Origin: Persicirhabdus sediminis
Lineage (GTDB): Bacteria; Verrucomicrobiota; Verrucomicrobiia; Verrucomicrobiales; Akkermansiaceae
Direction of reading: 5' to 3'
DNA: 64,000 nucleotides
NCBI RefSeq assembly: GCF_016595495.1
Contig: NZ_JAENIM010000044.1
Coordinates: 1 to 64,000 of the forward strand
Part shown: positions 13,116 through 55,511 of the stretch, piece by piece
Layout: every line of letters begins with the position of its first letter
How positions within the stretch are numbered: position 1 is the first letter of the stretch
The notes under the pieces: model-generated
Seen by the model: the letters and a program-made list of their open reading frames with translations, nothing else
What the model was told of the DNA's origin: nothing
Database searches by the model: none
Translations under genes and position numbers: made by a program

Positions 13116-14147
13116 CTAACAATTCACCTCACCGCGCACCATGAGATCATTACCCAGCTGGCTCCATTGTGGATTTTTCATGTGCAGGCTATTAGCCAGC
13201 TGCATATCCCCATCGCCCACGCCATCTTTAGATCCACCGCAAATCATTGGAGCATAAAAGAATACACATTCATCCACCAATCCAGCTTTCACAAACTCGC
13301 CTAGCAGAACTCCCCCGCACTCTAGCATGACTACATTACAATCCATCTCCGCCAGCTGCTTAAGAACACTAGCTGGCGATTCATTCTGATAGACTAGGGT
13401 TCGATCGCTAAATTCATCATTAAATAGCTTAGCCGAGTTTGGCAAAAATCTAGCATCACTACGCGTCATCACCACACGCCATGGTTGAATTTTTCCAGCT
13501 GGAACATTTTCACCACGCAATGTTAGTGCGGGATCATCAGCCCTAACTGTATTTCCGCCAGTAATAATCGCGTCACTCTCACAGCGAATATTTTGCACTT
13601 CAGCGCGCGCTTCAGCTCCAGTTAGCCACTGCCCTTCACCAGCTGGTCGGGTGATTTTGCCATCCAGACTCATGGCTGATTTAGCAATCACCCACGGTCG
13701 GCCACTGCGCATGCGCTTGAAAAACCCACGATGTTCGTATTCACACTGCTCAGCCAGCACGCCAGCCGTCACTTCAACACCTTGAGCCTGCAAAATTCCA
13801 TCCGCGCGCCCTGCATGCTCGGGATTTGGGTCCACCGCACCATAAACCACGCTGGAAATGCCCATTTCTAGAATCCCCTGCACACAAGCTGGCGTTCTGC
13901 CCTGGGTGGAGCACGGCTCCAGCGTCACATAAATAGTAGATCCACGTAATTCATCAGCCGAATGACGAGTCAAAGCATCGGCAATCGCCTCGCGCTCGCC
14001 ATGCGGAAGCCCAGCTTTTCGGTGCACACCGCGCCCCAGAATTTCGCCCTGTTTGACGATCACCGCACCCACATTTGGGTTCGGACTGGTCAGGCCGCGG
14101 CTTTTTTGCGCCTCGTTCAGGGCCATTCTCATCCACTTCTCATGCAT
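13116..14147 (-). CDS. ribD: Bifunctional riboflavin biosynthesis deaminase/reductase
   Basis: Carries out two consecutive cytoplasmic steps of riboflavin synthesis: deamination of the pyrimidine intermediate, then NADPH-dependent reduction of its ribosyl side chain. The N-terminal zinc deaminase has H49 and E51 (in HGERE rather than the common HAE) and zinc cysteines C79 and C88 in PCSTQGRTPAC. The C-terminal reductase starts near residue 150 (RPWVIAKSAMSLDGKIT). The 343-residue length is normal for the fused form. No other rib genes or FMN riboswitch are visible nearby. Its start lies about 57 bases from the first DnaA box of the candidate origin. Confidence 0.96.
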   Translation of the reverse strand: MHEKWMRMALNEAQKSRGLTSPNPNVGAVIVKQGEILGRGVHRKAGLPHGEREAIADALTRHSADELRGSTIYVTLEPCSTQGRTPACVQGILEMGISSVVYGAVDPNPEHAGRADGILQAQGVEVTAGVLAEQCEYEHRGFFKRMRSGRPWVIAKSAMSLDGKITRPAGEGQWLTGAEARAEVQNIRCESDAIITGGNTVRADDPALTLRGENVPAGKIQPWRVVMTRSDARFLPNSAKLFNDEFSDRTLVYQNESPASVLKQLAEMDCNVVMLECGGVLLGEFVKAGLVDECVFFYAPMICGGSKDGVGDGDMQLANSLHMKNPQWSQLGNDLMVRGEVNC

Positions 14148-14203: not shown

Positions 14204-14430
14204 TGTGAGTAACCCAGATATCGCTGTGAGTAAGTTGTGAATTGTGGATAACTGTTAATAAACTTTTCTTAATTGGTCGATTTGTAGATTTCAGCTCTTT
14301 AAATTATTCACACGTTATTGCATGCGTGGAATGCTTGAGCTAATCACGTGGAACTCGAATTATTCACACTTATTCACACCTATAAGATGAAGATATATTT
14401 TTTAAAATTAATTTATTCATCCATTAAGCT
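14204..14430. other. Candidate chromosomal replication origin (oriC): DnaA-box cluster and AT-rich tract
   Basis: Within 175 bases there is one perfect DnaA box (TTATCCACA read on the minus strand, 14243-14251) and three exact TTATTCACA boxes on the plus strand at 14304-14312, 14360-14368 and 14370-14378, the last two spaced exactly 10 bp. Two TTACTCACA-type boxes (14204-14212 and 14225-14233, minus strand) and one weaker match (14236-14244) lie at the left edge. The right-most box is followed by CC and then an AT-rich tract (14381-14430), the arrangement expected of a DNA unwinding element. A CACGTGGAAC sequence (parS half-like) lies at 14345-14354. Confidence 0.75.
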
Positions 14431-23485: not shown

Positions 23486-25336
<1,851 letters not shown>

Positions 25337-25440
25337 AGTGGTATCAGCTGGCCAAATCAGTAGATCACCTGAGAAAAATTACAAATCGGAATTTTCATCT
25401 GATAGATTCCAGCTGGCGGAAATTTACCAGCTGAAAAAAA

Positions 25441-25454
25441 GTTCCACGTGGAAC
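25441..25454. other. parS-like site upstream of mnmG
   Basis: A second perfect GTTCCACGTGGAAC palindrome, in the intergenic region 104 bases upstream of the mnmG start. It probably binds the chromosomal ParB protein. It is followed by C, as in some Pseudomonas parS sites. Confidence 0.82.
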
Positions 25455-25492
25455 CAGTGAGCCAGCGGTGAGAAATATGGGCTTCGAGAAAT

Positions 25493-53027: not shown

Positions 53028-55511
53028 TTATCTAACTTCTAGCGTGCCCTCGGTGACGCCGAGTTTTTCCATGGCATTGAGTTGGTGCCAGAGTTTGGCG
53101 CCATCGACAGGATTGGCGAATAGTTCGCGGTAGGCGGTGATGACCTCAGCGGCTTCGGCTGCGTCTTCGTTGAGTAGGTCGATGCGGAAGCGTTTCAGCC
53201 CGGTAGCGCGCATTTGTTCAAAGTAGCGCGCGCCGGTTTGAGCTTTGCTGTTGAACAGCGTATTGCGGCAGCCGACGTCAGCTGTTAGTGTGTGTAGTTC
53301 ACCGACACGGTCGCGGATTTGCACTTTGTGTTTTTCGCACGGGTAGCCGCAGTCGAGGAAGCTTTTGCCTTCGCTGAGGAAGGTGCAGAATACGCAGTGC
53401 TCCATGTGGAACATTGGCATGTGCTGGTGCAGAGTGAGTTCGAACCAATCTTGCGGGCAGCCGTAGAGCAGGTTGAGCACCTGGGTGATGTTGAGATCGT
53501 AGCTGACCGTTAGGTGGTGAAGTTTGCCTTCCTTTTTGAGAATGTCAGCGGTGATTGGGTTAGCGCAGTTGAGGGAGAAATCACCAGTGCGGTAGAACTC
53601 GTCTTTGTTTTTGAAATACTCGATGGCGCCGAGGTTGCGGATGAGTACGCCGTCTGGAGCGGCGCGTTCGATGAGCTTGAAATAACCGTGCTCGCCGGCT
53701 TTCTGAATGCGAGGTGTCGCTAGGTGGATGGTGCTGTTAGTTCCATGCTCAGCATTGTAGTCGCGCACACGCTGGACCACATCTTTGTAGAGACGGATGT
53801 CCATGAAGTCGGCGTAGAGGGTGGTGACATTAGCCGCTAGGCAAGTGTCGATTTGCTCCATGTTGCGGCACAGCACGGTGAGCTCGGTAGGCTCTTTGGG
53901 GCGGTCTTCGCGCTTGGGCATGAGCTCAGCTAGGGTGCCAGTTGGCTGGGCCTTGGCGGGCTCATTTTTAGCTATGGGACCTTGTTTGTCCAAGGCCTCT
54001 ACGAGTGCGCGGCGCAGTCGGTTGAGTGCGGAGAGCGGCATGATAACGTCGCCTTGCAGCTGATTATCAATTCCCGCTAGCTGGTAGTCTGTACCGCCGA
54101 GGCGACCGAGCTGTTTGGCGAGTGTCTCGTCATTGAGTGGGCGGTTTTGGGCCGCTTCTAATTTCTCGCTAGATTCTACGGTGATGCCGTGGCAGCTGAG
54201 TTTCATTGGCTGGCCAGCTGAGCCGATGATGGTGATTTGTAGGCCGTCGCGCTGTGGCTCTAACTTCACATTTTTCCACCATGAACGCACTTTGGCATTG
54301 AGCTTAGGGTCGTCGGTTTTCCAGATTTTTTGTCCGGGTTTGATGCGTTTCCAGTCGAGTCCACTTTTCTGGTGGTGGAAGACCATGGTATTGCCATCTA
54401 CTTGCCAGATCCGTGCGCCTTGTTCTTTGTTGCGGTCTTCACCAGCGTCAAAAACCACACCGTCGCCAGCGCGCAGTGGTACTTTTGATTCCAGCTCTAA
54501 CTCGACACGTTCGTAGTCGACTTTGGTCACGGTGCCAACGTAGGCGCCGCGTTTTTTGCCAAATTTTCCGTGAGTAAGTTTTGGGTGGTTAGTTCCTTCT
54601 AACCATCCGGTGCTGAGTCCGCGTGAGAAGACCATTTCTAGCGTATAGCGGTCTTCATCGGTGATTGGGCTAGGCAGATCAGCGGCGGCTGCGTCGATGG
54701 CCTTGCGGTAGACGCGAGTGACGGCGGCAACGTATTCTGGTGATTTTAGGCGACCTTCGATCTTGTAGGAAACCACGCCCATTTTCACTAACTGAGGGAC
54801 CACGTCCACGGCGGCTAGATCCTGCGGGCTGAGCAGGTAGCGGGTATCGCCCATTTCTTTAGTTTCGCCATCGACGACGAGCTCGTAGTTCATGCGGCAT
54901 GCCTGCGCGCACTCGCCGCGGTTAGCGGAGCGCTGGCCGAGGCTTTCACTCGTTAGACACTGGCCTGAGTAGGCGACACAGAGTGCGCCGTGGACAAAAA
55001 CTTCGATCGGCACGCTTTCCGCTGGGCCAAATTTTTTGATTTCACGCAGCGACAGCTCGCGGGCGAGCACGGCGCGGTCTAGCTTGAACAAAGCATCGGC
55101 AAAATCCAGTCCCTCAGGCGAGGTGATGGTCATCTGCGTGGAGGCGTGAATTTCTAGTGAGGGAGCGACGGTGCGAGCTAGCCGTGCGAGGCCGAAGTCT
55201 TGCACGATGATGGCGTCGACATTGGATTCTGCGAGCAACTTCAGCTGCGCTTCAGCCGCTTTCAGCTCGTTGGTGAAGATCAGCGTATTCATCGTCACAA
55301 AGCCGCGCACGCCGTGGCTGTGGAGGAAATCCATCAGCTCAGGTAAGTCGGCCTCGGTGAAATTGTCAGCTCGTAGACGCGCGTTGAACTTGGGCAGGCC
55401 AAAGAAAATCGCATCTGCGCCATTGGCGACAGCTGCCCGCGCACAGTCCCAATTGCCTGCTGGCGAAAGGAGTTCGGGGCTCATGTGGTGTGGCTGACGG
55501 TCGCTGCTCAT
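53028..55511 (-). CDS. U32 family protein (RlhA-like), long form
   Basis: An 827-residue cytoplasmic protein of the U32 peptidase family, whose characterised members (such as RlhA/YdcP of E. coli) hydroxylate RNA bases rather than cut proteins. The N-terminal barrel starts PELLSPAGNWDCARAAVANG and includes the family signature EVFVHGALCVAYSGQCL followed by SANRGECAQACRM, giving four cysteines that can bind a cluster. The middle resembles the collagenase-like DUF3656 part. The C-terminal third has a second set of cysteines (EHCVFCTF, CGYPCEKH, DVGCRNTLF). It resembles a fusion of two U32 halves. An alternative start is the ATG at 55484. Confidence 0.88.
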   Translation of the reverse strand: MSSDRQPHHMSPELLSPAGNWDCARAAVANGADAIFFGLPKFNARLRADNFTEADLPELMDFLHSHGVRGFVTMNTLIFTNELKAAEAQLKLLAESNVDAIIVQDFGLARLARTVAPSLEIHASTQMTITSPEGLDFADALFKLDRAVLARELSLREIKKFGPAESVPIEVFVHGALCVAYSGQCLTSESLGQRSANRGECAQACRMNYELVVDGETKEMGDTRYLLSPQDLAAVDVVPQLVKMGVVSYKIEGRLKSPEYVAAVTRVYRKAIDAAAADLPSPITDEDRYTLEMVFSRGLSTGWLEGTNHPKLTHGKFGKKRGAYVGTVTKVDYERVELELESKVPLRAGDGVVFDAGEDRNKEQGARIWQVDGNTMVFHHQKSGLDWKRIKPGQKIWKTDDPKLNAKVRSWWKNVKLEPQRDGLQITIIGSAGQPMKLSCHGITVESSEKLEAAQNRPLNDETLAKQLGRLGGTDYQLAGIDNQLQGDVIMPLSALNRLRRALVEALDKQGPIAKNEPAKAQPTGTLAELMPKREDRPKEPTELTVLCRNMEQIDTCLAANVTTLYADFMDIRLYKDVVQRVRDYNAEHGTNSTIHLATPRIQKAGEHGYFKLIERAAPDGVLIRNLGAIEYFKNKDEFYRTGDFSLNCANPITADILKKEGKLHHLTVSYDLNITQVLNLLYGCPQDWFELTLHQHMPMFHMEHCVFCTFLSEGKSFLDCGYPCEKHKVQIRDRVGELHTLTADVGCRNTLFNSKAQTGARYFEQMRATGLKRFRIDLLNEDAAEAAEVITAYRELFANPVDGAKLWHQLNAMEKLGVTEGTLEVR

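Follow-up and report, generated by a model that had tools for sequence, protein, structure and literature searches.

Background

Adjacency of oriC to dnaA and dnaN is common, although not universal. Among the described systems closest to the locus reported here, the basal unwinding system (BUS) of Bacillus subtilis and Helicobacter pylori consists of a DnaA box, a spacer and a DnaA-trio; the trios described so far have 5'-CTA-3' on the strand that leads away from the box and 3'-GAT-5' on the 5'-tail strand (PMC8287927, PMC8235120). In H. pylori, reversal of this polarity abolished opening, and the ATP-DnaA box is TYATTCCWT; the optimal distance between boxes for a DnaA filament is given as 2 bp (PMC8235120). 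For Verrucomicrobia and Akkermansia, our search of open full text found neither a mapped origin nor a description of the module reported below, and the open literature yielded no published account of its GGAAC elements; an in silico prediction of the origin's location may well exist already. Here we describe a locus, beside ribD and not dnaA, that we judge with a probability of about 94% to be the chromosomal oriC of a Verrucomicrobiales (Akkermansiaceae-like) bacterium.

Results and discussion

A dense DnaA-box cluster upstream of ribD

The window analysed is a stretch of 64,000 nucleotides, bases 1-64000 of contig C44 (236,347 bases) in an assembly of 4.17 Mb and 47 contigs. A preliminary description of this DNA had reported seven DnaA boxes within 175 bases, the left ones on the minus strand and the right ones on the plus strand; positions and strands proved exact. 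From 14204 to 14378, seven boxes match TTATNCACA with at most one mismatch, four of them perfectly (TTATCCACA once, TTATTCACA three times), and a further minus-strand box in the left array, CAATTCACA, has two mismatches (Table 1). In 60 simulations under a first-order Markov model of the window, no 175-bp interval held more than two perfect boxes, or three when one mismatch was allowed, against four and seven in the real sequence. Perfect copies of TTATNCACA occur 93 times in the 4.17-Mb assembly versus 38 for the reversed control, and the 14204-14378 cluster is the densest genome-wide, with about 4e-7 such clusters expected. Equally dense clusters at other loci, which the preliminary description had named as grounds for doubt, are absent from the assembly.

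The runner-up (C7:12052-12197) contains four co-oriented boxes, three of them perfect, directly upstream of dnaB, which suggests DnaA control of this helicase gene; given that position and a constantly negative skew, it was set aside as a rival origin. Separately, TTATTCACA occurs on the minus strand no more than a few hundred bases from five contig starts (C20:669, C37:244, C42:506, C46:532 and C47:545); these are probably copies of a single repeat at which the assembly was interrupted.

GC skew, dnaA and parS

Cumulative GC skew, computed along the whole of C44 (236,347 bases), reaches its lowest point at 14.5 kb, at the site itself, and climbs from there to the end of the contig; the left arm on C44 comprises only 14 kb. 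The skew evidence had earlier been called mixed; a flat part does exist at 6-10 kb, inside nifJ, but the contig-wide minimum settles the matter. As had been noted, dnaA is outside the window: it is found at C29:26836 with a DnaN-like ORF downstream, so that the locus is not adjacent to dnaA/dnaN. The dnaA region has constantly negative skew, and no DnaA boxes were found near dnaA on C29; an origin at dnaA is therefore ruled out.

The preliminary placement of mnmG and parS-like sites nearby was also borne out, with two sites 10-11 kb from the cluster. The window holds five parS-like sites with three or fewer mismatches, versus 0.57 expected. Sites of the form TGTTCCACGTGGAACA cluster near the origin, as they do in four closed relatives. 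Further parS-like sites were seen at window position 53398 and at C44:102862.

Table 1. Features of the putative origin region and its surroundings, in window coordinates.
Feature	Position	Strand	Basis
ribD, left neighbour of the origin	13116..14147	-	Pfam PF00383 and PF01872; adjacency in relatives
DnaA boxes	14204(-), 14225(-), 14243(-), 14253(-), 14304(+), 14360(+), 14370(+)		match to TTATNCACA
Left DnaA-box array	14204..14261	-	14204 TTACTCACA, 14225 TTACTCACA, 14236 CAATTCACA, 14243 TTATCCACA, 14253 TTATTAACA
Slot 1, DnaA box TTATTCACA, offset -24	14304..14312	+	column conservation; profile matches start here
Slot 2, degenerate DnaA box TTATTGCAT, offset -13, TTRTT core kept	14315..14323	+	column conservation
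Slot 3, GTGGAATGC, family consensus GTGGAACnC	14326..14334	-	column conservation; reverse complement GCATTCCAC resembles ATP-DnaA box TYATTCCWT
Slot 4, unconserved 9-bp spacer preserving the 11-bp pitch	14337..14345		column conservation
Slot 5, GTGGAACTC, family consensus GnGGAACa, exactly 22 bp past slot 3	14348..14356	-	column conservation
Slot 6, full DnaA box TTATTCACA here, merely T-rich in relatives	14360..14368	+	column conservation
Slot 7, DnaA box TTATTCACA, consensus TTRTTCACA, offset +42, beside the presumed unwinding element	14370..14378	+	column conservation
AAG-ATG-AAG triplet run, 5 bp past slot 7	14384..14392	+	AAGAAGAAG in most relatives
AT-rich tract, presumed DNA unwinding element	14393..14424		sequence, family G+C profile
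mnmG (gidA), origin-proximal marker, close to the module in most of the relatives compared	23486..25336	-	position in relatives
parS-like site TGTTCCACGTGGAACT inside mnmG	24570..24585		1 mismatch to palindromic 16-mer TGTTYCACGTGRAACA
parS-like site AGTTCCACGTGGAACC upstream of mnmG	25440..25455		2 mismatches to TGTTYCACGTGRAACA

A rigid seven-slot module

The plus-strand array belongs to a module of seven 9-bp slots whose conserved columns start at -24, -13, -2, +9, +20, +31 and +42, an exact 11-bp pitch counted from the first GGAA (window 14328). In order, the slots are a DnaA box, a degenerate box, GTGGAACnC, a spacer, GnGGAAC, a T-rich slot and a DnaA box, and the strong boxes of the window occupy slots 1, 6 (1 bp late) and 7. 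With 9-bp slots, this pitch matches the 2-bp filament optimum (PMC8235120). GTGGAACnC and GnGGAAC are as well conserved as the DnaA boxes. The AT-rich tract had been placed two bases past the last box, which needs correction: a 5-bp spacer and the AAG-ATG-AAG run intervene, and the tract begins at about 14393. Across the module family, mean G+C is about 0.5 before it drops to 0.18-0.32 between offsets +50 and +90. AGATCT is enriched in the module set (18/68 versus 3) yet absent from the window, and a search of the module set for E. coli-like 13-mers gave one look-alike (G018) and no enrichment.

DnaA boxes precede ribD in several genera of the window's family; several relatives have them on the minus strand, with the window's 21-bp spacing kept in two genomes (G012 and G034). 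These regions proved to share a core. With a loose and then a tighter pattern, the module was found in eight genera of the order, in 66 of the 387 genomes searched. The pattern also matched 57 public genome records; of these, about 50 are genuine sites from Verrucomicrobiota (Akkermansiaceae, Roseibacillus, Rubritalea, Luteolibacter, Prosthecobacter, Chthoniobacter and Spartobacteria); seven were discarded as probable chance matches that lack the GTGGAAC context. The rigid module runs across Verrucomicrobiales and Chthoniobacterales. At genuine sites the GGAAC elements are exactly 22 bp apart, though the first pattern permitted a wide range. The gap from the second GGAA to the DnaA box is 16 bp in 57 of 69 modules and 15 bp in the other 12, the shorter gap being in part characteristic of Chthoniobacterales. 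In 60 of 69 the AAG run stands 5 bp past the DnaA box. A search of public genome contigs with the RibD protein alone gave no match.

For an nhmmer model built from 67 modules, the window left out, C44:14304-14415 was the sole match (E = 7.6e-17) in the 789 kb of the genome searched, the dnaA and dnaB regions included. A calibrated model from 50 other modules gave a single match in the assembly, at 14304-14420 (E = 8.3e-19, the best 150 of 476 candidates being scored). In a sample of the phylum, strong profile matches came mainly from the window's family, with one from another family of the class, and weak matches to half of the module lay farther out. Some relatives have only a weak module or none, for example most Akkermansia-like g3 genomes.

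The module in closed genomes

In closed relatives, the module stands close to parS and mnmG and either coincides with a skew switch or has one nearby; it does not stand at dnaA. In G027 (3.18 Mb, probably Akkermansia), dnaA is at base 422 but the change from negative to positive skew is at 1.237-1.245 Mb, a region that also holds the boxes at ribD (1.238 Mb), parS, mnmG and a degenerate form of the module. The module of G035 (4.92 Mb) is at 406.5 kb and parS at 412.9-414.6 kb; skew is of opposite sign in the 20 kb on either side of the module, is ambiguous over 240-360 kb and for the 240-406 kb region as a whole, and becomes negative again in the interval 2.8-2.97 Mb, close to the antipode. 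For G284, with the module at 1.5863 Mb and parS at 1.592-1.594 Mb, skew is weak and the whole neighbourhood ambiguous. G018 carries the module at 3.0336 Mb and parS at 3.040 Mb. Skew increases locally at this point, and the distant switch lies close to the antipode of the module. Between 2.2 and 3.03 Mb of G018:C1, the skew sign is opposite to that predicted by a module/parS origin, perhaps reflecting a large recent rearrangement.

Automatic annotation tends to put the origin at dnaA, where the G027 record starts even though skew in that genome changes sign at 1.24 Mb. With the module, oriC can be sought in many genomes of Verrucomicrobiales and Chthoniobacterales, drafts included.

Weighing alternative roles for the locus

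The preliminary proposal of a chromosomal oriC is supported by the contig skew minimum, the unique and densest box cluster, the proximity of parS, conservation across genera and families, the single-copy profile match and the skew switches in closed relatives. A box cluster beyond chance, a skew switch, an AT-rich element (recognized from sequence only) and a single copy near parS/mnmG are found together. A DnaA titration or reactivation locus of the datA/DARS kind, with the true origin elsewhere, would also have dense boxes and no dnaA nearby, but we consider this very unlikely: the skew changes sign here, the AT-rich tract, AAG run and nearby parS are origin features, and closed relatives have the module once, coinciding with a skew switch or close to one. 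A separate conserved cluster at C21:266517-266849 suits such a role better. Its three boxes (+,-,+) at near-equal spacing recur in two further genera (G018 5074075-5074413 and G035 2981646-2981987), with an extended core AAGTTATTCACAAT and no flanking genes in common, making it a candidate datA/DARS-like element; the G035 copy is near that genome's far skew switch. As origins, the C21 cluster and one at 4.61 Mb in G018 were dismissed, neither showing a skew change.

That the boxes instead form a DnaA-regulated promoter region of ribD would fit their place just upstream of the ribD start (14147), and DnaA does regulate genes elsewhere, a box cluster preceding dnaB in this same genome. This explanation seems to us more remote still, as the module stands apart from ribD in G018, G035, G284 and the g10 genomes G079, G087 and G108, and is therefore conserved independently of it, and the skew minimum and parS sites would be left unexplained. 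Least credible is an origin belonging to a plasmid or an integrated element: with the contig beginning only 14 kb left of the locus the replicon cannot be closed, but ribD, mnmG, nifJ and other core genes share one 236-kb contig with chromosomal skew, and the orthologous loci are on single-contig chromosomes.

A proposed model of initiation

The DnaA of this genome has the canonical GGRDH helix-turn-helix motif, and binding to TTATNCACA-type boxes is therefore expected. Domain IV reads GGRDHGTVI in five genomes; the E. coli counterpart is GGRDHTTVL, and the differing residue, here glycine, occupies a base-contacting position. We infer DnaA binding, the opening site, the roles of the GGAAC elements and AAG run, and initiation itself along the following lines. 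The two facing box arrays would recruit DnaA, the plus-strand array serving as a helically phased seven-slot scaffold, with 9-bp sites 2 bp apart, directed toward the AAG spacer and the AT-rich tract. Once bound to the strong boxes at the ends, DnaA would occupy the weak slots between them, the two inverted GGAAC elements among these; the tract would open at about 14384-14424 for DnaB loading, and forks would depart both ways. ParB on the parS sites in and beside mnmG could then segregate the new origins.

For the GGAAC elements we favour a reading as inverted weak boxes of the ATP-DnaA type, because their reverse complement has the TTCC core of TYATTCCWT (PMC8235120). Since they also match a parS half-site, binding by another protein is possible. 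A verrucomicrobial opening mechanism of its own is conceivable, if on balance doubtful: GGAAC, bound by inverted ATP-DnaA or by another, perhaps ParB-like, protein, would form part of a seven-slot 11-bp scaffold that brings DnaA to AAG triplets, the strand used being the other one from that in the known DnaA-trio system.

Comparison with known systems

What appears new here is the lineage-wide seven-slot module with GGAAC elements, as a conserved sequence arrangement; a chromosomal oriC is itself of a known kind. As in E. coli oriC, strong boxes anchor weak sites in two opposed arrays with 2-bp spacing, an AT-rich unwinding element adjoins, and dnaA is not next to the origin. Sequence and order differ, with GGAAC elements in place of the I/tau sites, and the window has no GATC cluster or 13-mers; AAG triplets precede the AT tract, and parS/mnmG are nearby.

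Weak sites between strong ones are shared with the ATP-DnaA boxes of H. pylori (TYATTCCWT), the W-boxes of C. crescentus and the I sites of E. coli, and the slot 3 reverse complement GCATTCCAC agrees with the H. pylori box at 7/9 positions. Unlike these boxes, the GGAAC elements are inverted relative to the strong boxes and have an invariant GGAAC core and a fixed 22-bp pitch. The CGTGGAAC of slot 3 is a half-site of the parS of the window's family, TGTTCCACGTGGAACA, a match that may be coincidence; the GGAAC elements are direct repeats at 22 bp and not palindromes.

As in the BUS, a DnaA box stands a few bp from triplet repeats leading into the unwinding tract. Membership in that class was taken to require a DnaA box no more than 16 bp from three or more triplets that have.A. 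on the 5'-tail strand, with consensus 3'-GAT-5'. The loose.A. rule is matched only by the T-run at 14395-14403, with a 16-bp spacer, and is uninformative in DNA this AT-rich. Where trios read 5'-CTA-3', the module has 5'-AAG-3', leaving 3'-TTC-5' on the 5'-tail strand, a reverse polarity for which we dropped the AAG run as a standard DnaA-trio. Because polarity reversal abolished opening in H. pylori (PMC8235120), we treat this as a real difference and do not class the module as a BUS. With its triplets in the opposite polarity, the module is a rigidly conserved natural variant suited to probing the generality of the DnaA-trio model.
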